Virus record (IMG/VR): IMGVR_UViG_3300036828_000908
Coordinates: 1-20,275 of that record
Source of the DNA: a virus
DNA: 20,275 nt
Direction: 5' to 3' (one strand)
The position numbers and the translations under genes were made by a program. The notes beneath the pieces are model-generated. The model made no database searches and was not told the DNA's origin. It saw nothing but the letters and a program-made list of their open reading frames with translations. Below, piece by piece: positions 5,881 to 16,370 of this stretch; positions within the stretch are counted from its first letter, which is position 1, and each line of letters starts with the position of its first letter.

Positions 5881-5896
5881 GGCGTCCTCCTATTCA
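5881..5896 (-). promoter_or_regulatory. strong ribosome binding site of the 311-aa gene
   Basis: On the minus strand the leader reads AATAGGAGGACGCC followed by ATG. AGGAGG (5886-5891) is a full match to the anti-Shine-Dalgarno core with a 5-nt spacer, and it fixes the start codon at 5880. It begins inside the stop codon of the 61-aa gene. It is nearly identical to the leader of the 61-aa gene itself. Confidence 0.8.
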
Positions 5897-6079
5897 GGCG
5901 TTGCGCGGACCCGGCACCGAAACGTGCGGGACATAGTGCACGTTGGGCCGATCGCCCACGTTGACCGACTGCCCCTTGGGATGCGGCTCGACCGCCGAGG
6001 GTGACTTGCGGTGCATGCCTTTCTGGTGGATCTGCGTGTCTTGATGGCCGGCATGGCCAGACGGTGAGTGACGCTCCAT
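5894..6079 (-). CDS. His-rich basic small protein (61 aa), unknown function
   Basis: I do not recognise a named family. The protein has 8 His in 61 residues, many Pro, Ser and Gly, no hydrophobic segment and no Cys, and looks disordered and basic. Its N-terminal half (ERHSPSGHAGHQDTQIHQKG) spaces His residues 3-6 apart, which could bind divalent metal or nucleic acid, but nothing in the sequence shows this. The gene is convincing because AGGAG sits 6 nt before the ATG and overlaps the preceding stop codon, and because it fills the interval between two real genes with almost no spare DNA. Its neighbours are a secreted Cys-rich protein upstream and the ejection proteins downstream, so a minor virion component is possible. 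Confidence 0.68.
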   Translation of the reverse strand: MERHSPSGHAGHQDTQIHQKGMHRKSPSAVEPHPKGQSVNVGDRPNVHYVPHVSVPGPRNA

Positions 6080-6093
6080 GGCGATCTCCTATT
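6080..6093 (-). promoter_or_regulatory. strong ribosome binding site of the 61-aa gene
   Basis: The minus-strand leader is AATAGGAGATCGCC followed by ATG. AGGAG (6086-6090) overlaps the TAG stop of the Cys-rich gene, giving tight coupling. It matches the next gene's leader at all but two positions. Confidence 0.75.
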
Positions 6094-6355
6094 TACAGGT
6101 TACACGGTCTCTTAACACTAAAGTAGGCGTCGTGCTGGTGCCTGCAGGGCAATAAGCCGGCCGCGGAGAGATCGTACAATCTTGCTGGTAGATCACCCGA
6201 GCGTGCGAGCATCCGCTTGCGTCGATGCAGGTTTGTAGCTTGGTGCAGCTCCTGTGTCCTGCCGGACAGGTGATAACCGGCGGCGTGGTGCAAGCCCCTT
6301 GCGCCACAGCCGGACTGATCGGATTGATCAACAAAAAGAAGAAAAGCATCATCAT
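6089..6355 (-). CDS. small secreted cysteine-rich protein (88 aa)
   Basis: An N-terminal signal peptide is plain: MMMLFFFLLI, a short turn with Asn and Pro, then PAVAQ followed by GACTT, with an SPase I-type A-x-A-like site near residue 18-19. The mature part is about 69 residues with eight cysteines (22, 30, 37, 43, 49, 60, 69, 87), an even number compatible with four disulfides, and includes CPAGHRSC and YCPAG. It should therefore leave the cytoplasm and fold in the oxidising periplasm. I do not recognise the family. The start chosen is the first of three ATGs, at 6355, because it overlaps the stop of the preceding spike-like gene as ATGA; the ORF could extend to 6490 but that part would lie inside the upstream gene. 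Possible roles are a tail accessory, a periplasmic exclusion factor or a lysis accessory; none can be chosen from sequence. Confidence 0.7.
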   Translation of the reverse strand: MMMLFFFLLINPISPAVAQGACTTPPVITCPAGHRSCTKLQTCIDASGCSHARVIYQQDCTISPRPAYCPAGTSTTPTLVLRDRVTCK

Positions 6356-8016
6356 TGTGGGTTCACAAAACATCCGCTCCAGCTGGCCGGTGGAGCAAAC
6401 GTCCCGCTGCTGTACAGGTAGCCGCCCTGCCCTGCCGTCAGGGCGGCTGGGTAAGGACTGCTGAATTGAATGGTTGCGTTGGTTGAACAAGCGTACTTGG
6501 CACCCGCTACCGTACCCCCGATGGAGTATGCAGGATTGCCGCCAATCTGCGCATTGTTGGTGGCGTCATACCAGAACGAAATGTTGGCGCTGGCGCCACC
6601 GGGAACTGAAATATTGTCCACTTGTACGGATGCCCCGAAGCTGGCAGCAACAAAAATGTCAGCGTTACCCTGCACCGATACATCAACGACGTTGACCGAC
6701 GCCAGATCAGTTGCAGAGACATCAACGCCGCCGATATTAGACCCAAAAATAACATTGTTAAGATCAAGTATGACAATCTGTCGGGCATTGACTGCCGCAG
6801 ACCCCGAGCCTGCATAGCCAAACTCAAAACCGGTGACAGTGACTTGCTGACCATCCTGCACGTCAAGTATCACGGTTCCGGCACTCGAGATCAGCGCGCA
6901 CGCACTTGGAGCGCTGGCGTTACCTACGAAATTAATGAGGCTGCCCAGACCGCGGTAAACCTGAATACTGTTCGCGGGACCATATGCGTCCGCACCATAA
7001 TGGGCCTCGCAATCAGCCTGGATTGTCGGACCACCCTGAGGCGGAAAGGTTTGCGTCTGAATGATGTTGACGGCGTTCTGGAATGTCGAGCACGCTCCCG
7101 CACTGGTCGCCAGACAGTCAGAAAGCAACGGGTCGTCACTGCCGCCAAGATGATTGACGGTGAACGTCCCCGGCGTCTGCCACAGCTGGGTCTGCGGCGC
7201 CTGCGACCAGGTCGTGCCGTCATAAGTGAAAACATAGCTCTGGCCGGGGAACAGCCGCATGCTCCTGCCAGCAATGCTCAATCCTTTCCCGCGCACCGTA
7301 TCCGCATCGTAGATCCGCACGACGCAGCCGGTCGGGGGGATGAAGGAAGGATCGATATTTAATGTATAGAACGCATTTCCACCCATGCTGAAAAACTTGC
7401 CGCAATCATCCGCCACGCTCATTATGTAAGCAGAAACCAGCGGCATCACGCGCAGCAGCTGCTGTGCGGGTGGTGGCAGTCCGGTGTTGTTGAGCAGCTG
7501 GAATTCCACGCCGTCGAATACGACCTCATACAGCTGATTGGCCACTATCTCGCCGCCTACCAGTTCCTGCAAGCCCGTGGCGGTCTGCTTGAGGATCGCT
7601 GTTGGCGAACCGCCCGCCACCGACAGCGTGGTTGCGCCGGTGTTGCCCACCCCGGCAATGAACAAGACCTGATAGCCGAGTGTCAGGACAAACGGGGACG
7701 GCAAGGTGGTATCAATTTTCTGCGCATTGCCCAGACCACTCGTGTCGGTCGTGGGGGAGATGGCAAAGAAGGACTGCGAGCCGCCAGCGCTGGGCGTTAT
7801 CGGCACAATGATGCTGGTGAGCTGCGTGATATCGCTGTTCACGCCGGCCGCTGCGGCATTGCCGAGGCAGGTCACCAGCGCATTGTAGTTCGACATGACC
7901 TGGGTGGCATCTGCCGGCTGACCGTTCTGCAAGTTGAACGGCAGTGCGCACGGCACCCCGGCCGCTGCCGGGGTGCAGCCAAACAGCAAAGACAGAAGCA
8001 GGATGATATTTTTCAT
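6352..8016 (-). CDS. tail-spike-like protein with N-terminal signal peptide (554 aa)
   Basis: The N-terminus MKNIILLLSLLFGCTPAAAG is a signal peptide: Lys, an eight-residue hydrophobic core, then AAA before GVPC. Cys14 in LFGC could instead be a weak lipobox. Residues about 24-70 (FNLQNGQPADATQVMSNYNALV) resemble a segment common at the start of phage tail-associated proteins. Residues 85-180 are beta-rich with repeated GATTLSV- and VVFDGVEFQLL-type strands. From about 285 (FTVNHLGGSDD ... FQNAVNIIQ) the pattern is that of a pectate-lyase-type beta-helix entry, followed by repeated short Val/Ile/Asn strands to about 470 and a small C-terminal cap. There are 11 Cys. The start is the ATG at 8016, which overlaps the nozzle stop as ATGA; the longer in-frame start would lie inside the nozzle gene. 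Likely a receptor- or polysaccharide-binding tail part; no catalytic residues were identified. Confidence 0.7.
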   Translation of the reverse strand: MKNIILLLSLLFGCTPAAAGVPCALPFNLQNGQPADATQVMSNYNALVTCLGNAAAAGVNSDITQLTSIIVPITPSAGGSQSFFAISPTTDTSGLGNAQKIDTTLPSPFVLTLGYQVLFIAGVGNTGATTLSVAGGSPTAILKQTATGLQELVGGEIVANQLYEVVFDGVEFQLLNNTGLPPPAQQLLRVMPLVSAYIMSVADDCGKFFSMGGNAFYTLNIDPSFIPPTGCVVRIYDADTVRGKGLSIAGRSMRLFPGQSYVFTYDGTTWSQAPQTQLWQTPGTFTVNHLGGSDDPLLSDCLATSAGACSTFQNAVNIIQTQTFPPQGGPTIQADCEAHYGADAYGPANSIQVYRGLGSLINFVGNASAPSACALISSAGTVILDVQDGQQVTVTGFEFGYAGSGSAAVNARQIVILDLNNVIFGSNIGGVDVSATDLASVNVVDVSVQGNADIFVAASFGASVQVDNISVPGGASANISFWYDATNNAQIGGNPAYSIGGTVAGAKYACSTNATIQFSSPYPAALTAGQGGYLYSSGTFAPPASWSGCFVNPQ

Positions 8017-9761
8017 GCGGCACTCCCGATCGGCTGTTGCAGGTATCCCAGTTGCTCGTAACGCAGATGCATGGTGCCGATACGAAACTGCTGGCTTGCC
8101 GGTCCCAGCACGTTCATTGCCATGCGGCGAAACACGATCGGTTTTGACCACGCAATCTGCTGTGGGAACAGCGACGACGGCTGCCCGCCCCAGGTTGCCG
8201 CTCCCCACTTGAACTCACCCCAGATCGTAGCACCAGCGATGCCGCCCACGACCACCATCCCCAGCGCCGAGCCGCTCTCGTTCAAAGCGTGCACGTTATA
8301 TGACGCTCCTGGCGCCTGTCCAAGATAAATCGTGGTTTCAATCATGGCGTTTTCGCTCATCTGATCGGTGTCGGGCAGCATGCAGGTCAACCAGCTGAAA
8401 CGCATCGGAACGCCGTTCTCGGTGAAAGTAGAAGCCGAAGTCTGCAGATAGTCCGATTGAAACAGCGCATGCGGAGCGGCATACGGCGCAGTGATGAACG
8501 TAGCTCGGTAAGGTCTGATCAAGCGCGCCGGAAAGCTGTGTGGCCCGGACCAGATGCCGCCGCGGGAAAAGTCCAGCCAGTATTCCACCATTGGCGACTG
8601 TGGAGCCGAGCCATCCTGTACGCTCACACGGTAAACAGTGCCGTTGGCTGCAGCGGCGATGCGCGACGGTGAAACCGCAAACAGGAAAGGCAACGTCTTG
8701 CCCATGCCGTCATTGCCGAGTGGGTCGCTGACCTGGGCGTTGAAATCGATGACGCGCACACCGTCGGGTGCGCAGAAGGCGAGCCCCTTGGGTGTCGCTG
8801 CCAGGGAGTTGGGTGCGAACGTGCCGGTCGCCACGTTGAGCGCATTGCGGGTCAGCGTGCCGAGCGGCGGCCCAGGACCGAGACTGATGTCACCGGTTAT
8901 CTGGAACATGTTGGTCACGCCCTTGAACACGATCAACGACTGGATGATGCCGCCCAGCTGATTGGACAGCGGCAGCGCGCCAAGCGCAGTGATGGCCACA
9001 TTATCGTCGTAGGTGATGACCTGAACAGCGCCTACATTGGACACCAGCAGCGGTGCAAGCACATCGGTGAACACCGTCGCCGATGGTCCTGAAGACGGGT
9101 TATAGGCCCAGTAAGCCCGGCCGTTGAAAGCCTTCACTGCCACGGGGACGCCGGTCGCAGTAGAAAAAACAAACTCATTGGTAATGGGAGGAGTAGTCTG
9201 ATCGTGAAAATTACCAGCGTTCCACAGCGGGATCGTAGGATCGGTAATGTCAAACCAGCCGAAAAAATTACCAGTTCCGGCAAAGCCGGGATGCGTCACC
9301 AGCACAATCGAGCCGATGATATCCATCGTCGGCGGCGTCCAGTCACCGCTGCTGAGTTGGCGGGTTGGCAGGTTGCCGCCGGTTCCAGGCGTCACGAACC
9401 CGACCGGGATGAAGCTGTGCGTCTTGAGATTGAAGACAAACGGGTAATCCTGATTGTCAGGACCAGCGGCAAACATGCCGTAGGCTGTATCGCCGACAAT
9501 CAGGAAACAGGAAACGACACCGAACGGTGACGGAAACAACTCGGAAATTTCAAAACCAGAACTGAAACCCGAGCTGAACGGGGCACCCATGTTGCCCAAC
9601 GAGATCGACGCCGGCCGGCATTCCCACAGCCCGCGCGTGGAAGGATCGGGAATGAGATCGCTCAACGCGGTCATCGCCCCACTAAAAACCATCGAGCTGT
9701 CTTCCGCATCGGAGACCCCGCGCGGGTGGAAGGCGAGAGCTGTGGTGCGACGCAGGCTCAT
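8013..9761 (-). CDS. tail nozzle / tail-tip beta-propeller-like protein (582 aa)
   Basis: The order and motifs fit the nozzle family of short-tailed phages, which forms the tube below the adaptor and gates DNA exit. Supporting features are the N-terminal SLRRTTALAFHPRGVSDAED, a long series of beta-strand repeats, and IIQSLIVFKGVTNMFQITGD near residues 276-295, which is close to the family's typical 'vFk..siy.itG' blade. KGLAFCAPDGVRVIDF (about 330-345) is another blade-like repeat. The C-terminus (FRRMAMNVLGPASQQFRIGTMHLRYEQLG) ends with beta-strands and a flexible tail. The ATG at 9761 forms an ATGA overlap with the one-TM gene, so it is preferred over the in-frame GTG at 9776. It is separated from the adaptor gene by the spike and lysis genes. 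Assignment is from motif memory and context; P22 gp10-like stabilising proteins are the close alternative. Confidence 0.72.
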   Translation of the reverse strand: MSLRRTTALAFHPRGVSDAEDSSMVFSGAMTALSDLIPDPSTRGLWECRPASISLGNMGAPFSSGFSSGFEISELFPSPFGVVSCFLIVGDTAYGMFAAGPDNQDYPFVFNLKTHSFIPVGFVTPGTGGNLPTRQLSSGDWTPPTMDIIGSIVLVTHPGFAGTGNFFGWFDITDPTIPLWNAGNFHDQTTPPITNEFVFSTATGVPVAVKAFNGRAYWAYNPSSGPSATVFTDVLAPLLVSNVGAVQVITYDDNVAITALGALPLSNQLGGIIQSLIVFKGVTNMFQITGDISLGPGPPLGTLTRNALNVATGTFAPNSLAATPKGLAFCAPDGVRVIDFNAQVSDPLGNDGMGKTLPFLFAVSPSRIAAAANGTVYRVSVQDGSAPQSPMVEYWLDFSRGGIWSGPHSFPARLIRPYRATFITAPYAAPHALFQSDYLQTSASTFTENGVPMRFSWLTCMLPDTDQMSENAMIETTIYLGQAPGASYNVHALNESGSALGMVVVGGIAGATIWGEFKWGAATWGGQPSSLFPQQIAWSKPIVFRRMAMNVLGPASQQFRIGTMHLRYEQLGYLQQPIGSAA

Positions 9762-10003
9762 GGCGGCACGACGCACTTGGCCAGCAGCTGCGAGACCTCA
9801 CGCTGATACTCGAACTGCGATTTGAGCAGATTATCCCTGAACTCGGCGGCGCGGATCAAAGCGTAAAAGATGAAGCCGAGCAGGGCGACATTGCAGACGA
9901 TCAGCGCCAGCACCGCGGGCTGCGTGCGCATCGCGTCGAAGAACGAGCGCGCGGTCTGACCTGCCTCTTCCATCGGCCCCGGGGCCATCATCATCATCAT
10001 CAT
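9758..10003 (-). CDS. one-TM small protein, candidate holin or lysis accessory (81 aa)
   Basis: After six Met residues the protein reads APGPMEEAGQTARSFFDAMR, then one hydrophobic span (PAVLALIVCNVALLGFIFYA, about residues 29-48), then a charged amphipathic helix (RAAEFRDNLLKSQFEYQREV) and the end LLAKCVVPP. A single membrane span with a charged C-terminal helix, immediately downstream of the endolysin, fits a one-TM (class III-like) holin or an inner-membrane spanin-like protein; I cannot separate these. The N-terminal tail lacks a cleavable signal. The start is taken as the first ATG, one base after the endolysin stop; GGGAG lies 12 nt upstream, a long spacer, and the later ATGs would be even further away. 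Its own stop overlaps the nozzle start (ATGA). Confidence 0.65.
   Translation of the reverse strand: MMMMMMAPGPMEEAGQTARSFFDAMRTQPAVLALIVCNVALLGFIFYALIRAAEFRDNLLKSQFEYQREVSQLLAKCVVPP
9986..10003 (-). repeat. six tandem ATG codons at a gene start
   Basis: Six consecutive ATG triplets on the minus strand begin one base after the TGA of the endolysin gene. They form an 18-bp trinucleotide microsatellite exactly at the initiation region of the one-TM gene, so several in-frame starts are available. Confidence 0.95.
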
Positions 10004-10004
10004 G

Positions 10005-11567
10005 TCAGGCAATCGCTCCCTGCGTATCGATGTAATCCTGTACCTGATGCAGCATGACATCGGCGTCGGTCTTGAGTTCGGCCTCTTCGCGGTTGATGGG
10101 TCCGTAGTGCTGTCTTAATTTGCGCAGCACGACCGCACACGTCTCGCAGGCAAATGCCGGCTCGCTTTTGCACAGATCCTGGAATTCCTTGCCCATACCC
10201 GAACCGTAGCTGTCCCAATCGGAAGAGGAGCACGACACTCCATCCTCGAACTGAGCCAGGAAACCCTGTAGCTCCCCGGCTCCAAACGCGCGCATCAGCT
10301 CGTCAAATTCACTCGAACACGTGTGCGCGTTGTAGCTGGTCTGAAACAGCCCCGCCTCTGCCGTATCGCTCGAGGTGTTATCGGCGCTCTGATCGCGGCC
10401 ACAGCAGTGCTGGCCGGAACTCTCGCGCATGCCAAGCCCCATCAACAGCGCCCACAGGTGGCGCAGCGTATCGGGGCCATCCCTCGTGTTGTCCATCTCG
10501 GCGTCACGGTATTGCGTGTAATACCATTGCAGAACATCCTTCTCAGAGTTGCCCGAGTTCTTCTTCGCCATCTCGACCGCCGGAGAATAGCCGGCAAGCA
10601 GCTGCCGGTAGGTGTTGGCGAAAGCCAGCGCAAAGCCCGTCACGTAACCATCGGGCGCGATGCCGCGATCGTCCCAATTGTAGTTCGCAATTCTGGAATT
10701 GATCGCGATCACCGAGATTGCATCCACCTGCTCGTCGCTCAATGGCGACAGCGCACCGCCGCCCGGCACCTCGCCCTGCGGGTCGATGTAGGCGCTCGAG
10801 GCCCAGCCGTAGACCGCCACGCCGGCCATGTGATCGTCGCCCCATTTCAACTTGTACCAGTCGCCGCTCGACCCGACGATGGTGACCAGATCGCCGTTCT
10901 CGGCCCGGCCGATGATCGGGGACGAGCTAGACGCGGTCGCCCGTATATTCAGATAGTCGTGATAGGGGACGTTCATCACCTCGCCGACGATCGGGCCGCT
11001 GCTCGGAGGTGGCATCTCGATCTCATCCGGCGGCTGCTCATCGATCGATACCCCGGCAAGCGTTTCGGCAATCGCGCGACAGATATCCTCGAAATGCTGA
11101 TTAAGCAGGTCCGTGTCTGCGCGGCTGTCGCAGAACATGGTCTCGATGAGGATGCTTTTGGCCCTGGTGTTATTCAAAAACGCCAAATCGGACTTGTACT
11201 TTGGGCCGCGGTCAATAAAATGGCCAGCAGCCGCAATGGCCTCCGACATCCGATCGGCGAAGTCTTCCTGGGTGACCCAGAGCACCTCGACGCCCATTGG
11301 CTTGGTAGTCGAGGAGTACGCATTCAGATGGACGGAGACGTCGTAGGTGTGCGACGGCTGGGCGTTGTGGAAATTGGTAATTGTCGAGAGATTTTCACTC
11401 TGGGAATGGCTGGTATTATCGTGGAACTTGGTCACTTGCACGTTTGCCGATTTCAGCATTTCGGTGACGCGGTCAACGATCCGTCTGGCCTCATTGACCT
11501 CGTCGCAGTACCCGCTGGCGCCCCGCACGTAGAGACCGTGTCCTGAACTGATAACGATGCTGTTCAT
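10005..11567 (-). CDS. modular endolysin: amidase_3, SH3 and C-terminal lysozyme-like region (520 aa)
   Basis: Residues 1-175 are an N-acetylmuramoyl-L-alanine amidase (Amidase_3) that cuts the bond between MurNAc and L-Ala. SSGHG holds zinc ligand H10, DEVNEA (22-27) holds the Glu ligand (E23 or E26), SVHLNA holds H80, and ILIETMFCD holds the catalytic E142. Residues about 190-262 are a bacterial SH3 domain (YLNIRATASSSSPIIG, then WYKLKWG and YGWASSAYI), probably binding the wall. The last 240 residues look like a second catalytic region: GLGMRESSGQ (377-386), with E382 as candidate general acid, then EAGLFQTSYN (404-413), the 'E-S-S-G ... G-[LI]-x-Q' pattern of lysozyme-like transglycosylases and muramidases. 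Seven Cys (388, 389, 417, 446, 466, 474, 477) lie in it. There is no signal peptide, so a holin is needed unless it is virion-borne. The start lies 4 nt after the spike stop. Confidence 0.85.
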   Translation of the reverse strand: MNSIVISSGHGLYVRGASGYCDEVNEARRIVDRVTEMLKSANVQVTKFHDNTSHSQSENLSTITNFHNAQPSHTYDVSVHLNAYSSTTKPMGVEVLWVTQEDFADRMSEAIAAAGHFIDRGPKYKSDLAFLNNTRAKSILIETMFCDSRADTDLLNQHFEDICRAIAETLAGVSIDEQPPDEIEMPPPSSGPIVGEVMNVPYHDYLNIRATASSSSPIIGRAENGDLVTIVGSSGDWYKLKWGDDHMAGVAVYGWASSAYIDPQGEVPGGGALSPLSDEQVDAISVIAINSRIANYNWDDRGIAPDGYVTGFALAFANTYRQLLAGYSPAVEMAKKNSGNSEKDVLQWYYTQYRDAEMDNTRDGPDTLRHLWALLMGLGMRESSGQHCCGRDQSADNTSSDTAEAGLFQTSYNAHTCSSEFDELMRAFGAGELQGFLAQFEDGVSCSSSDWDSYGSGMGKEFQDLCKSEPAFACETCAVVLRKLRQHYGPINREEAELKTDADVMLHQVQDYIDTQGAIA

Positions 11568-11571
11568 GGTA

Positions 11572-14500
11572 TCACCACAGCGCGTTGGCTTGCGTCACTG
11601 TATCTGCAAATTGATTAACACCATCGTGTGCATTCAAGACCAATGACGGATAGATCCCCTGATCGGTTTGCGCTGTCACAACAACGTACGGCATCATCGC
11701 CAAGGTATCACCGCCGCCAAGAGTTGGGCCTACAGCGACAACATGCGATCCTGTCAACCAGAATGGTACAGCTGATATCGCATCACCCGCCAGATTGCCT
11801 GTTACGCCTGCTGCTGTAATCTGGCGAAGACCAACAGTTTTCAGATTGACACTTTGACTTGAAATAGTCGGATAAGTAATCCCACCAGCTGTCTTGTAGC
11901 CAAATATATTTATATTGAATTGATAACTCGCAGCGGCTCCGGTGTAAGGCCGCAACACGTTGATGTTCAAATAGAGCAGATTTCCTGCCAGTCGCACGTA
12001 CCTCTCTGATGTATTCACACTTATCGGCAAGCCGGCAAACGCTCGCCTGAAATACGAATACATCGGAATGTCTGGCGGAGCCCCTGCCATGTCCGCCACC
12101 GTCCGACCGCCAGTGCAATTGATCACTGTCAATCGAGCACAAGAGTGAGGCTGGTAGTGCATCACATTGGTGACTGTGAAAGGCGTGGATGCGCCTATGG
12201 TAGCAGAGTTGTTGAGAGTGTAAGCACCCAGTTGATTTGCTGGTACACCAGGGATCTGGGTTATGACTGTCCCACCGGGTAATGTGCCACCAGTGATGTT
12301 CATACCGGCTAACGGCCACGCATCGGAGGGAGTAACCGCAGTAGCAGTCAACGTAGTGCCGGAGACTGTGCCAGTAAGCGTTATTGCCGTGTTTGGGAAA
12401 ACTGGGAGATCGGTATCGACGCTAAATGCACCAGCACCATCCGTATAAACATCCAGAACCGTGAAAGCCTTGATCATCCCCATGGTAGAGCCAGGATTTA
12501 TCGTTCCACTAGTGCTGGCATTTGTAATAACAGTCGGAGTAGCACAGAGTGCAATCTTTGCACCAGGAACAGCCCATGGTAAGGGGCAGACTGCCGCCGT
12601 AGCACCGCCTGGAGCACGCCAAGTTCCATAAGCGGTTGTCCCTCCTATTGGGATCGACAATGTGCCATTTGTAAATGTAACAAAGACAGTATTAACAACC
12701 GTCCCTTCCTGCATGCTGTCGAGAGTTTCACCAATATATGAGTTGATCAGCGTAACCCGATCGGTTGCACCATACACAATGCCTAACTTGAACTGACCGC
12801 TGAGAAAGCTGTCCTTGATGACCGTCTCTTTTGCAGTGCCGGATACACCGTTCATCATCTTGCAGCGCTCGATGAGCAGCTTGTTGATGGATGCAGTCTG
12901 CAAGCGAGGATAGGATGTCTGATCAAACACGCAGTCGATGTACTCGATCGTGTCGATCATCTTGTCAACTTCAGGAATGCAATTATGAAAATTACAGCGT
13001 TCCATGGTGAACTTGCGCACCAGAGCCGGAGACGGACCGCTGTCAAATGCCCAACCATACATCTCACAGTCGATAAGTCGAACAGTGCGCATGCCACCGA
13101 TCGTACCCTCGGTGACGCCGTAGATGTTAAGTCCGTGGACCTCCAATTCCTGATCAAACCCATCATTCAACTGCACGATCGTACCAGGCCCGTCCGCTGA
13201 CCCGCTCCAGCCAACGCCAGTCCCTGGAGTGAACTTTGGATAAGTCGAACGGTAGTTGTACTGCAAACGATCATAGAAGGTGATGACCCCGCCGATTGCA
13301 TCTACAGACTTGACCTTGAGAAATTCGAAGGTGGACGGGTTCCAGTTGGCGCCTGCATCCTGCTGCATGTCGATCGCCATCAAGGCGACCCAGGAATTGA
13401 CATAGAAATTAACTGCTTGAGCTGGGGTTATCAATGTAACGTTGTCTTGCTGGTGCCCACTAGTGTTGACGTCAGTTGTTTGAAATTGAGTGTGGTAGCA
13501 CCAGAGTGAAGGACCACCAGAAGCGGGAGTGTTTGCATTCTGATCACGATCGGCTCCGCCATAAAGATTTATATTGGTCGCTATACGTGTGCCATAGGCC
13601 AGCGCTCGTGTGCGCTTAAGTCCACAGTTGATGCCAGGAGCCATGTTGCCGCTTGCTGCATAGTTGCCTGGATCCCAGACAAAGTCGGTCCAGCTCTCGC
13701 CATAAGTTGTGTAAGAATGTGTACCTGACTGAGTGCCACTAGTGGCGATTGGTGTGCCCTTAACCGAAGTAGCTGTGCTGCCATTGAACAGCGGCGTGCT
13801 GGTGATCTGAAACGTAGTAGGCGTTACCGTGCCATAAAGGACGTAGTAGATCTGATTTACGACAATTCCAGTAGGCAATGCTCCGGTAGTCTGGAAGCTG
13901 ATTGCCTGTCCGTTGCGCAGACCATGATTACCAGGAAATTGCGGCGGCATGGTCACGGTAATAACCGCAGGGCTGGCAATAGAAATCGCTACCGTTCCGG
14001 TATTAGGCGTACCGGCTCGCTCGGCACCTATCCCGCCAGAAGGTGCAGCTATTGTCGACAGGTATTTGCTGAAATTCTGGAATGGAACGGCGTTATCAGA
14101 AGCGATAGGATCAATCCCAAACTGCGCTGTATGAAGAGGTAGGCTGGGAATTAGTTGCCAAAAAGAAGCATCAATAGTAGATGTTGGAAATGTCTTGAAC
14201 GTCAGCACGGCAGCCCAGGTGCCAGTGGGAGCATCCCCTACTGTCCACGTCGGATTAAACGTGACAGGATCCATGCTGTTGGTGACGACGCAAGCTATCG
14301 GATCTTTGCCATTGATGGGCGGCTGCAAGTCTATCCACCCAGGCGGAACCGTATAGGCCAGCCCAGGCACGCCTGGATTAACAACAAAGGTCTGTTGTGT
14401 CCAAACCAGTCCAATGACGAACTCAGGAGAGCCGGTCAATGAAGGCGAGGTGACTGAAGCTCCTCCAGAGGTTGTTACAGGAGAATATACAGCATTAGTT

Positions 14501-15516
14501 TGATCCAGCACTGCTCCCTTGAAGGTAGGACAGCAGTAGATGTTCATCTGAGGCTGCTGGCCAGCCACCGCAGGATCAAAGCCAGCGAGCGTAAAGACAG
14601 TTCCGATCGGCGCAAAAACCGGGTTTGAATTAGTGTAAATCGCAAAGGCTCCGACAGTTCCACTGCCGCCATATGCAAAAGCCAAAGTATACACATTGCC
14701 GGCACTGTCGGTGATGTTCGCAGGATAAGGAAATGGAGTCCAAAAGACCACACAGAATGTAAAACAACCCGCGAGTATCGGCTGATCTATTCTGAACACA
14801 TACGAGCGATTGGCGACTGTATCATAGGTTGTAGCAAAGCAGAGAACTGGGACACCTCCGCTCGTAAAGCTTGGCGGGATTAATTGTCCAGAAGGCCCGT
14901 CACCAACATACGCTGGAGGCAAGCTAGCGACACGCTTGTAGTTGGATGCTCCTCCATCACTAGGAATTTTGTTACCCATAACTCCGAGATTGACTACAGC
15001 GTCTGGGATAACGGCTGCCTGCGCATCCGCTGGGGTCGCAAACATAGGTGCGCCAAGGGCCGCCAGTGTTGTTGTACCCCCGCCACCGCCGCCACCGCCG
15101 CCTCCTCCGGTGCCGGCAACACTCAGAATGCCGGTATGCCAGTTGGACCCATCGCTTATCACCCAAGCCGACTCACCTTGACCCAGTGCTACAGAGACGC
15201 CGCCATCAATAGTGGTGCCCGCCGGAGGTTCAACGAGGAGAGAGTTTGAACCTTCATTTTTGACCAGCACATTGAAAGGGAAAACATCAGGCAATGACAC
15301 CGAGGCCCCTGCTGGAGCGTTTACCGCCACCAGCTGTCCGTAATCATCCGCCGTGATAGGGTAACTGGCACTCTGCTTGTTTACCTGCGGGGCCTGCTGC
15401 CAGGAATTGACCTCATCAATGGTCGTCGTACGCAGGATCTCCGGCGTGATGTCACCGTCGGTATTATCAGGAAAATTAGTATTGATCTCGGTGATCAAGT
15501 CTGTCTTGGTTGCCAT
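11572..15516 (-). CDS. modular tail spike / tail fibre protein (1314 aa)
   Basis: The longest gene and the likely receptor-binding spike. Residues 1-130 form an N-terminal adaptor-type region (MATKTDLITEINTNFPDN, then a beta-rich part ending ESAWVISDGSNWHTGI). Residues 137-147 are eleven Gly. Residues about 160-460 are a beta-rich domain. At about 466 (QFGIDPIASDNAVPFQNFSK) the pattern of a pectate-lyase-type spike begins, but it is interrupted at about 505-600 by a recognisable phage beta-module (SPAVITVTMPP ... TTGALPTGIVVNQIYYV ... SGTQSGTHS). Residues about 800-945 are parallel beta-helix rungs with a ladder of aligned positions (LIDCEMYG, MERCNFHNC, YIDCVFDQ, IERCKMMN, IKDSFLSG, LINSYIGE). 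A second module lies at about 1043-1118 (TGTVSGTTLTATAV ... GAYTLNNSATIG). The start at ATG 15516 shares a base with the preceding stop (TGATG). Depolymerase activity is possible; no catalytic pair was identified. Confidence 0.8.
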   Translation of the reverse strand: MATKTDLITEINTNFPDNTDGDITPEILRTTTIDEVNSWQQAPQVNKQSASYPITADDYGQLVAVNAPAGASVSLPDVFPFNVLVKNEGSNSLLVEPPAGTTIDGGVSVALGQGESAWVISDGSNWHTGILSVAGTGGGGGGGGGGGTTTLAALGAPMFATPADAQAAVIPDAVVNLGVMGNKIPSDGGASNYKRVASLPPAYVGDGPSGQLIPPSFTSGGVPVLCFATTYDTVANRSYVFRIDQPILAGCFTFCVVFWTPFPYPANITDSAGNVYTLAFAYGGSGTVGAFAIYTNSNPVFAPIGTVFTLAGFDPAVAGQQPQMNIYCCPTFKGAVLDQTNAVYSPVTTSGGASVTSPSLTGSPEFVIGLVWTQQTFVVNPGVPGLAYTVPPGWIDLQPPINGKDPIACVVTNSMDPVTFNPTWTVGDAPTGTWAAVLTFKTFPTSTIDASFWQLIPSLPLHTAQFGIDPIASDNAVPFQNFSKYLSTIAAPSGGIGAERAGTPNTGTVAISIASPAVITVTMPPQFPGNHGLRNGQAISFQTTGALPTGIVVNQIYYVLYGTVTPTTFQITSTPLFNGSTATSVKGTPIATSGTQSGTHSYTTYGESWTDFVWDPGNYAASGNMAPGINCGLKRTRALAYGTRIATNINLYGGADRDQNANTPASGGPSLWCYHTQFQTTDVNTSGHQQDNVTLITPAQAVNFYVNSWVALMAIDMQQDAGANWNPSTFEFLKVKSVDAIGGVITFYDRLQYNYRSTYPKFTPGTGVGWSGSADGPGTIVQLNDGFDQELEVHGLNIYGVTEGTIGGMRTVRLIDCEMYGWAFDSGPSPALVRKFTMERCNFHNCIPEVDKMIDTIEYIDCVFDQTSYPRLQTASINKLLIERCKMMNGVSGTAKETVIKDSFLSGQFKLGIVYGATDRVTLINSYIGETLDSMQEGTVVNTVFVTFTNGTLSIPIGGTTAYGTWRAPGGATAAVCPLPWAVPGAKIALCATPTVITNASTSGTINPGSTMGMIKAFTVLDVYTDGAGAFSVDTDLPVFPNTAITLTGTVSGTTLTATAVTPSDAWPLAGMNITGGTLPGGTVITQIPGVPANQLGAYTLNNSATIGASTPFTVTNVMHYQPHSCARLTVINCTGGRTVADMAGAPPDIPMYSYFRRAFAGLPISVNTSERYVRLAGNLLYLNINVLRPYTGAAASYQFNINIFGYKTAGGITYPTISSQSVNLKTVGLRQITAAGVTGNLAGDAISAVPFWLTGSHVVAVGPTLGGGDTLAMMPYVVVTAQTDQGIYPSLVLNAHDGVNQFADTVTQANALW
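15076..15108 (-). repeat. eleven-glycine (GGN) tract in the spike gene
   Basis: Eleven successive GGN codons encode a flexible linker between the N-terminal attachment region and the body of the spike (residues 137-147). The minus strand is a G-rich run prone to slippage or quadruplex formation. Confidence 0.93.
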
Positions 15517-16370
15517 CACGGCACTCCGACCGCTGTCATGTACGTGCGCATGGCGTTATAGAATGCCGTACGATTTACCCCAGACTGACCGGGTCCACCA
15601 AACCCAAAGGCACAAATCTGACTGGTGGAATAAACACTTGGTACGCCTCCGGCGAGTCCGGTAAAGTTGGCGCTAAGTGGCCCTGTTGAGGTTATGGTGT
15701 TAGAACCGTAGACAGCTCCATTTACATCTACACTCTGCGCACCAGTACCGGCCCTCCGGTTAAGCAAATATAATCCAGTGACCGCTGGAGCCGGAATTGA
15801 TGACCCTCCTGTAGTATCCACACTATTCAGATCCCAGTACATAACACTTGCGTTGTTAGTATTTAGTCGACTAAATCCAGCGGCGATAGCCGACCCTTGC
15901 CCAACTAGCGCACCCACGTCAGCCCCAGCACTATTCGTCCATCCAAACAAATATCCCGCGTCCGTAACAAAATGTGGGCTTGGCGCTGTAGCTGGATTAA
16001 AGCCACTATCGATGTAGGAGCCTGATGTTGGATTGGTGGTGTCTTGATAACCTCTATCTGCGGTGAATGTAAGCGAGCCACCATTATGAGCTGTAGCCAA
16101 TGCGCCAGCTACCAGATCAGTTAGTGCACTTGGTGCATTCTCAGCTGCGGTAAGCCAGATCCTGTCGACAGTCGCCCAGAGGCCATTCGACTTGAGAGTG
16201 GTAATAAGATTGTCGACTACCGTCTTCCGCCCAGCGCTGACTGTGCCGCCATGAGAATTAACAGCACTAATCCATGCTGTAGTGGAACTATCCAGACCTC
16301 CACCGCCTCCAGCTGACCCCATACGAGGCCCCGCTCCGAGCTGGGCAAACTCTTTGAATGACGAAAACAT
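15516..16370 (-). CDS. tail-associated structural protein, probable lectin-like beta-fold (284 aa)
   Basis: Residues 1-30 are a short N-terminal segment with a Gly run (MFSSFKEFAQLGAG, then GSAGGGGGLDS). Residues about 30-75 are helical (WISAVNSHGGTVSAGRKTVV ... WATVDRIWLTAAENAPSALTD). The remainder is beta-rich, with YIDSGFNPATA (about 117-127) and VMYWDLNSVD (about 172-181). I recognise this arrangement from proteins encoded beside tail fibres and spikes in phages and prophages, usually without a named function; a jelly-roll or concanavalin-like fold is plausible. The C-terminal SQICAFGFGGPGQSGVNRTAFYNAMRTYM fits a strand plus helix that closes such a fold. It starts 3 nt after the 100-aa gene and is coupled to the spike by a TGATG junction, so it is probably a spike partner. 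Its base composition is as AT-rich as the spike gene. Confidence 0.62.
   Translation of the reverse strand: MFSSFKEFAQLGAGPRMGSAGGGGGLDSSTTAWISAVNSHGGTVSAGRKTVVDNLITTLKSNGLWATVDRIWLTAAENAPSALTDLVAGALATAHNGGSLTFTADRGYQDTTNPTSGSYIDSGFNPATAPSPHFVTDAGYLFGWTNSAGADVGALVGQGSAIAAGFSRLNTNNASVMYWDLNSVDTTGGSSIPAPAVTGLYLLNRRAGTGAQSVDVNGAVYGSNTITSTGPLSANFTGLAGGVPSVYSTSQICAFGFGGPGQSGVNRTAFYNAMRTYMTAVGVP

Follow-up and report, generated by a model that had tools for sequence, protein, structure and literature searches.

The main genes of the window, a 20,275-base virus fragment from IMG/VR, lie on the minus strand (Table 1). The gene of interest starts with an ATG at 8016, ends with a stop codon at 6352-6354 and is preceded by a ribosome-binding site. 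Its ATG overlaps the stop codon of the preceding gene by 4 nt (ATGA). That gene encodes a tail nozzle. Foldseek matched the AlphaFold2 model of its product (pLDDT 82.9) to the nozzles or tails of Pa223, Pan3, GP4, PhiM1, P22 gp10, Sf6, and T7 gp12, confirming the fold. Upstream of the nozzle gene are a holin candidate, which gave no match in family searches, an endolysin, a large fibre-like protein, a conserved 240-aa protein that is an adaptor judging by gene order, and the major head protein. The endolysin is unusual: it has 520 aa and 10 Cys, carries no signal, and its C-terminal region matches phrog_33367, a family of unknown function. A small protein at 5894-6079 (-), with the pattern 'HSPSGHAG..HQKGMH..PHPKGPSV', directly follows the fibre gene in many relatives (L033, L066, L080, and L144-L146).

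Table 1. Features of the window and, in the last two lines, of related loci and a Bradyrhizobium phage.
Feature	Position	Strand	Basis or remark
Tail-fibre gene, predicted to be exported, 554 aa	6352..8016	-	sequence, family membership, RBS, ATGA overlap with nozzle gene
Signal peptide, residues 1-19, containing C14; predicted signal peptidase I (SPase I) cut AAA/G	7960..8016	-	sequence and family
GGAG Shine-Dalgarno sequence, 6 nt 5' of the fibre ATG	8023..8026	-	sequence
Mature N-terminal domain, residues 20-180 (helix 37-57 and beta domain); proposed nozzle-docking part	7477..7959	-	alignment, AlphaFold2, foldseek
Cys23, at motif -12, the first of the two conserved paired Cys	7948..7950	-	family comparison
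Family motif ADATQVMSNYN, residues 35-45	7882..7914	-	family pattern and alignment
Cys50, at motif +15, the second of the two conserved paired Cys	7867..7869	-	family comparison
C-terminal part with 8 Cys, residues 181-554; orphan, presumed to bind the receptor	6355..7476	-	no homologue, low-confidence model
Small Cys-rich gene, 87/88 aa, hydrophobic N-terminus, ATGA-coupled to the fibre gene	6089..6355	-	sequence
Tail nozzle, frame of 587 aa, in translational coupling with the fibre gene	8013..9776	-	AlphaFold2 model, foldseek
Holin candidate, small membrane protein with one hydrophobic segment	9758..10060	-	sequence
Endolysin, amidase_3 and SH3	10005..11567	-	family matches
Large fibre-like protein, 1315 aa, no signal peptide, 17 Cys (odd)	11572..15519	-	internal contrast
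Second family, predicted to be exported	L050:2849-4054, L093:9493-10740, L071:1838-2428, approximately 25 others	-, +, - (the three loci named)	
Two consecutive signal-bearing fibre genes of ppBdUSDA122-1	OP596612.1 5285-9366		annotated only as tail fiber / hypothetical protein

Residues 1-19 of the fibre protein, MKNIILLLSLLFGCTPAAA, are followed by GVPC and have the Sec/SPase I layout, namely, a positive n-region (Lys2), a hydrophobic core, and Ala-x-Ala. The mean hydropathy of the N-terminus over 10 residues was 2.96. Among the 17 genes of the window, such an N-terminus was found only here and in the next gene (3.00), and the third-ranking protein, the capsid, reached 1.96. These features confirmed the original prediction of a clear signal ending in AAA-G on a 554-aa gene. 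The predicted total of 11 Cys was also correct; C14 lies inside the signal, and the mature form has an even number (10). The idea that every fibre of this phage is exported is wrong, because the 1315-aa fibre lacks a signal and has an odd number of Cys.

The AlphaFold2 model of the N-terminal domain mostly had a pLDDT of 70-96, with a dip at residues 51-70. Foldseek matched this domain to phage tail fibres (9b45 at E 0.009, probability 1.00) and to BFVD entries. A search with residues ~190-554 did not find homologues, and pLDDT in this part was mostly <50. The window protein itself gave no match in domain and PHROG family searches.

Relatives were collected in two samples. Sample 1, defined by one motif pattern (ADAxQVMxN[YF]N), yielded at least 119 loci from IMG/VR and a further 21 from contigs of bacterial genomes; 126 proteins were left after the removal of two chance matches and near-copies. 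A scan of the bacterial contigs with the window protein yielded no confirmed relatives, and the motif pattern then succeeded. Signals were called with a home-made test rather than SignalP, and start codons were set by rule. By this test, among the matches listed and after redundancy filtering, the signal was present in 105/126 members and absent in 21/126; L002, a relative found by sequence, also has one. Sample 2 was centred on the nozzle and comprised 65 loci that were not chosen by the fibre motif. A fibre-family gene, nearly always with a signal, was downstream of the nozzle in 63 of these, and in both exceptions a signal-bearing gene also begins next to the nozzle. In most loci the fibre start and the nozzle stop codon lie no more than a few bases apart, with the start mostly at -4. 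The signal is kept in most of the approximately 140 relatives, and these homologues rule out a chance hydrophobic N-terminus, as had been argued from the window alone. Homologues lacking a hydrophobic N-terminus had been named as evidence against the signal; they were looked for, and most members have one.

The layout of the signal is also conserved. Among the matches listed, Lys or Arg occurred within residues 2-6 in 103 of the 105 signal-bearing relatives and Ala at -3 in 83; Ala at -1 is partly a product of how the site was chosen. In 74 of these 105 members, the distance from the last [AVST]xA site to the motif was exactly 15 residues, and signal-less members begin 15-16 residues ahead of the motif in 16 of 21 cases (again among the matches listed). 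Since the cleavage position equals the signal-less N-terminus, the cleaved form would restore the start that other members are born with.

The C-termini in the family are of fibre type: Pfam Collar (PF07484) was recognised in 33 of 81 members, and others were gp53-like, gp10, lectin, Mtd, or pectate-lyase. PHROG matches were numerous and were to tail fibres or collars. With these fibre domains and a gene beside those of the tail machine (the nozzle), the family can be classified as tail fibres, and the description "tail-spike-like" is supported at this level by the fibre domains and foldseek. The original interpretation as a fibre or spike with a cleavable signal is strongly supported by the relatives, whereas neither the beta-helix that it included, given the orphan, poorly modelled C-terminal part, nor activity on capsule was confirmed. 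Neither this nozzle nor the fibre N-terminus was found in cultured phages among 50,697 phage records.

A pair of cysteines at -12 and +15 from the motif accompanies the signal. Among 119 members in the matches listed, 81 had both the signal and pair, 24 the signal only, 14 neither, and none the pair without a signal; the pair was thus present in 81/105 signal-bearing members versus 0/14 signal-less members at nozzle loci, and a single Cys of the pair was never observed (0/119). The two positions shift together; when the first is at -15, the second is at +20. The number of mature Cys was even in 60 of 66 phage members. Parity is not a product of the conserved pair only, because the C-terminal part alone had an even number in 55/61. 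No parity was found in the adjacent nozzle, our cytoplasmic control (27/64), and other residues of the fibres had even counts near one half. The binomial P values for the Cys counts (1e-12 and 1.5e-8) ignore relatedness, are inflated by related sequences, and are rough. Paired, even cysteines tied to export, together with a negative nozzle control, point to disulfides.

On the nozzle tree, the signal state changes about ten times. The signal and pair changed in the same direction in 5/5 informative independent contrasts (p = 0.0625), which is a small test; Cys density as the trait instead of the pair gave a weaker result. On this tree, L071, which has neither a signal nor Cys, is the sister of L057, and L052, which lacks both the signal and the pair, groups with L049/L035 as its sisters.

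The next gene had also been predicted to carry a signal peptide. This stands in part: its hydrophobic N-terminus ends AVAQ/G, but the n-region contains neither Lys nor Arg. The product has 8 Cys. The gene was specific to the window among the relatives examined, being absent from the nearest ones (L144, L145, L146, and L033), and a homologue search with its product gave nothing convincing; the motif PPxxxCPxGHRxC faintly recurs in L045, L172, and L201. In relatives, the gene after the fibre gene often encodes a different, presumably exported fibre. A second family of this kind (165-200 or ~400 aa, '..GPQDPSQLxATINTLIQSIN..') is found directly downstream of the fibre gene. Its mature Cys number was even in 26/26 members, one of which, from a bacterial contig, is a first-family paralogue, and the ~400-aa forms match PHROG tail fibre 4492. 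This second gene is present in L071 although the first fibre has lost its signal there.

We compared the family with known systems. Approximately 40% of its members end in a collar domain, as do tail-collar fibres (PF07484; the short fibre tip of T4 gp12 type), and there are many PHROG tail-fibre matches, whereas the C-terminus of the window protein matches none of these families. To our knowledge, typical fibres of these families have no signal and are assembled in the cytoplasm. P22 gp9/gp10 likewise combines a fibre or spike with a gp10-like nozzle (a fold match); however, no sequence similarity was detected, and we know of no signal peptide on gp9. Agrobacterium phage Milano, which infects an alphaproteobacterium, has a disulfide-linked tail, and neither signal peptides nor the periplasm are mentioned in the paper describing it (PMC10811340). 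Functional tail disulfides, as in the fibres proposed here, thus occur without reported export, which counts against our model but would not account for the signal. Bradyrhizobium phage ppBdUSDA122-1 encodes two consecutive fibres (WAX24263 and WAX24264) with signal-like N-termini and even Cys numbers (18 and 6), and these genes adjoin an amidase gene. However, its gene order is of the siphophage type, the N-terminal domain is different, and there is no nozzle. Its host strain, B. diazoefficiens USDA 122, spontaneously produces siphophage particles, as observed by electron microscopy (PMC10127595). No signal was seen in other cultured phages whose fibres have similar C-terminal parts (EBPR siphovirus 2 and Rhizobium phages), and the target proteins of phage DGRs are reported to have no detectable signal peptides (PMC6199706). 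Among open-licence papers, we found no earlier report of exported tail fibres.

Exported bacterial proteins (Bradyrhizobium, Mesorhizobium, Reyranella, and others) share the signal, motif, and Cys pair with the phage family. However, they are chromosomal, some are beside RHS-like genes, and no nozzle homologue accompanies them. In six bacterial contigs, mostly of Alphaproteobacteria (L128, L133, L135, L136, L140, and L141), after the exported protein comes a small RHS-repeat-like protein that is exported as well, and L133 and L140 also encode a ~1570-aa protein with a signal-like N-terminus. This neighbourhood looks like a conserved non-phage operon. Since the same N-terminal domain occurs in exported proteins outside phage tails, the domain alone is no proof of virion docking.

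We consider it rather probable that the window gene encodes a podovirus-type tail fibre that is exported by Sec, disulfide-bonded, and docks on nozzle-bearing virions at lysis. Export of the fibre is strongly supported by the sequence evidence; we infer docking at lysis from the gene position and signal-less orthologues. The fibre would be translated coupled with the nozzle and then sent through the Sec translocon, and signal peptidase I would remove residues 1-19. Host Dsb enzymes may make the disulfides in the periplasm, where the mature fibre would wait. When the holin and endolysin destroy the envelope, cytoplasmic nozzle-bearing virions would meet the folded fibres, and the cleaved N-terminal domain would dock on the nozzle, completing the particle. 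Because the cleaved and signal-less forms share an N-terminus, both probably dock in the same mode. P22 tailspikes attach to tailless particles in vitro, and late addition is hence feasible. Among the options originally raised, joining the particle only at lysis fits the data best.

The same export signal would also suit a fibre that is not part of the virion and acts as a decoy on, or released from, the infected cell, blocking receptors for superinfection exclusion or for the release of progeny from debris. Exported envelope proteins, Lom for example, are known from phages (PMC12309495), export is well supported here, the signal-less fibre gene 11572-15519 could serve the virion, and the bacterial exported proteins with this N-terminal domain keep the idea alive. 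However, a periplasmic decoy needs export, whereas orthologues at the same nozzle-adjoining place lack the signal and start at the same residue; moreover, the coupling to the nozzle and varied receptor-binding C-termini resemble those of a virion part. We regard the decoy as unlikely, but as the foremost of the alternatives. It is still less likely that the fibre of the window phage is a lipoprotein anchored in the envelope by C14, although the option of coating the cell was kept for this protein because C14 makes a possible lipobox. LFGC (in LLFGC) suits a loose lipobox ([LVI][ASTVI][GAS]C), the close relative L144 has the classical LASC at nearly the same place, and cysteine parity is compatible with both cleavages. 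Nevertheless, within the pattern-scan set the box is found only in the window and is absent from nearly all relatives, C14 is unusually close to the N-terminus, and both the window and L144 retain the AAA/G site where the family has it.

The two remaining readings concern the N-terminus itself. Residues 2-12 are predicted to form a hydrophobic helix, and an uncleaved segment might remain part of the fibre in the virion and act on membranes or form a core, similar to the membrane-interacting tip originally suggested. This is a poor fit and very improbable: the n/h/c layout is conserved, with Ala at -1 (partly by construction) and mostly at -3, the distance from the cleavage site to the motif is fixed and equals the signal-less N-terminus, and the cysteine pair and parity are tied to the signal. 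A mis-called start, with the real one downstream and the hydrophobic stretch untranslated, has the least probability, even though some orthologues begin at the mature position. The window ATG has GGAG and ATGA coupling, most loci start near the nozzle stop codon, mostly at -4, and even diverged sequences retain the hydrophobic layout; on the strength of the RBS, coupling, and synteny, we rejected this reading.

Tailed-phage assembly is regarded in textbooks as wholly cytoplasmic. We judge the chances evenly balanced that virions are built in two compartments by a whole uncultured podovirus-type clade and, independently, by one or more Bradyrhizobium siphophages: the particle would form in the cytoplasm and the disulfide-bonded receptor-binding fibres in the periplasm, to be joined only at lysis, with the signal gained or lost approximately ten times on one gene. 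Phage ppBdUSDA122-1 provides a bench system and makes a related arrangement testable. Fibre genes of this kind may be listed as 'hypothetical secreted proteins', which export would explain. Tail fibres determine which bacteria a phage infects. If they mature in the periplasm, receptor-binding proteins could use disulfides and avoid the limits of cytoplasmic folding. Virions that have not yet been released may then be non-infectious before lysis, and co-infecting phages could swap fibres in the lysate (phenotypic mixing).
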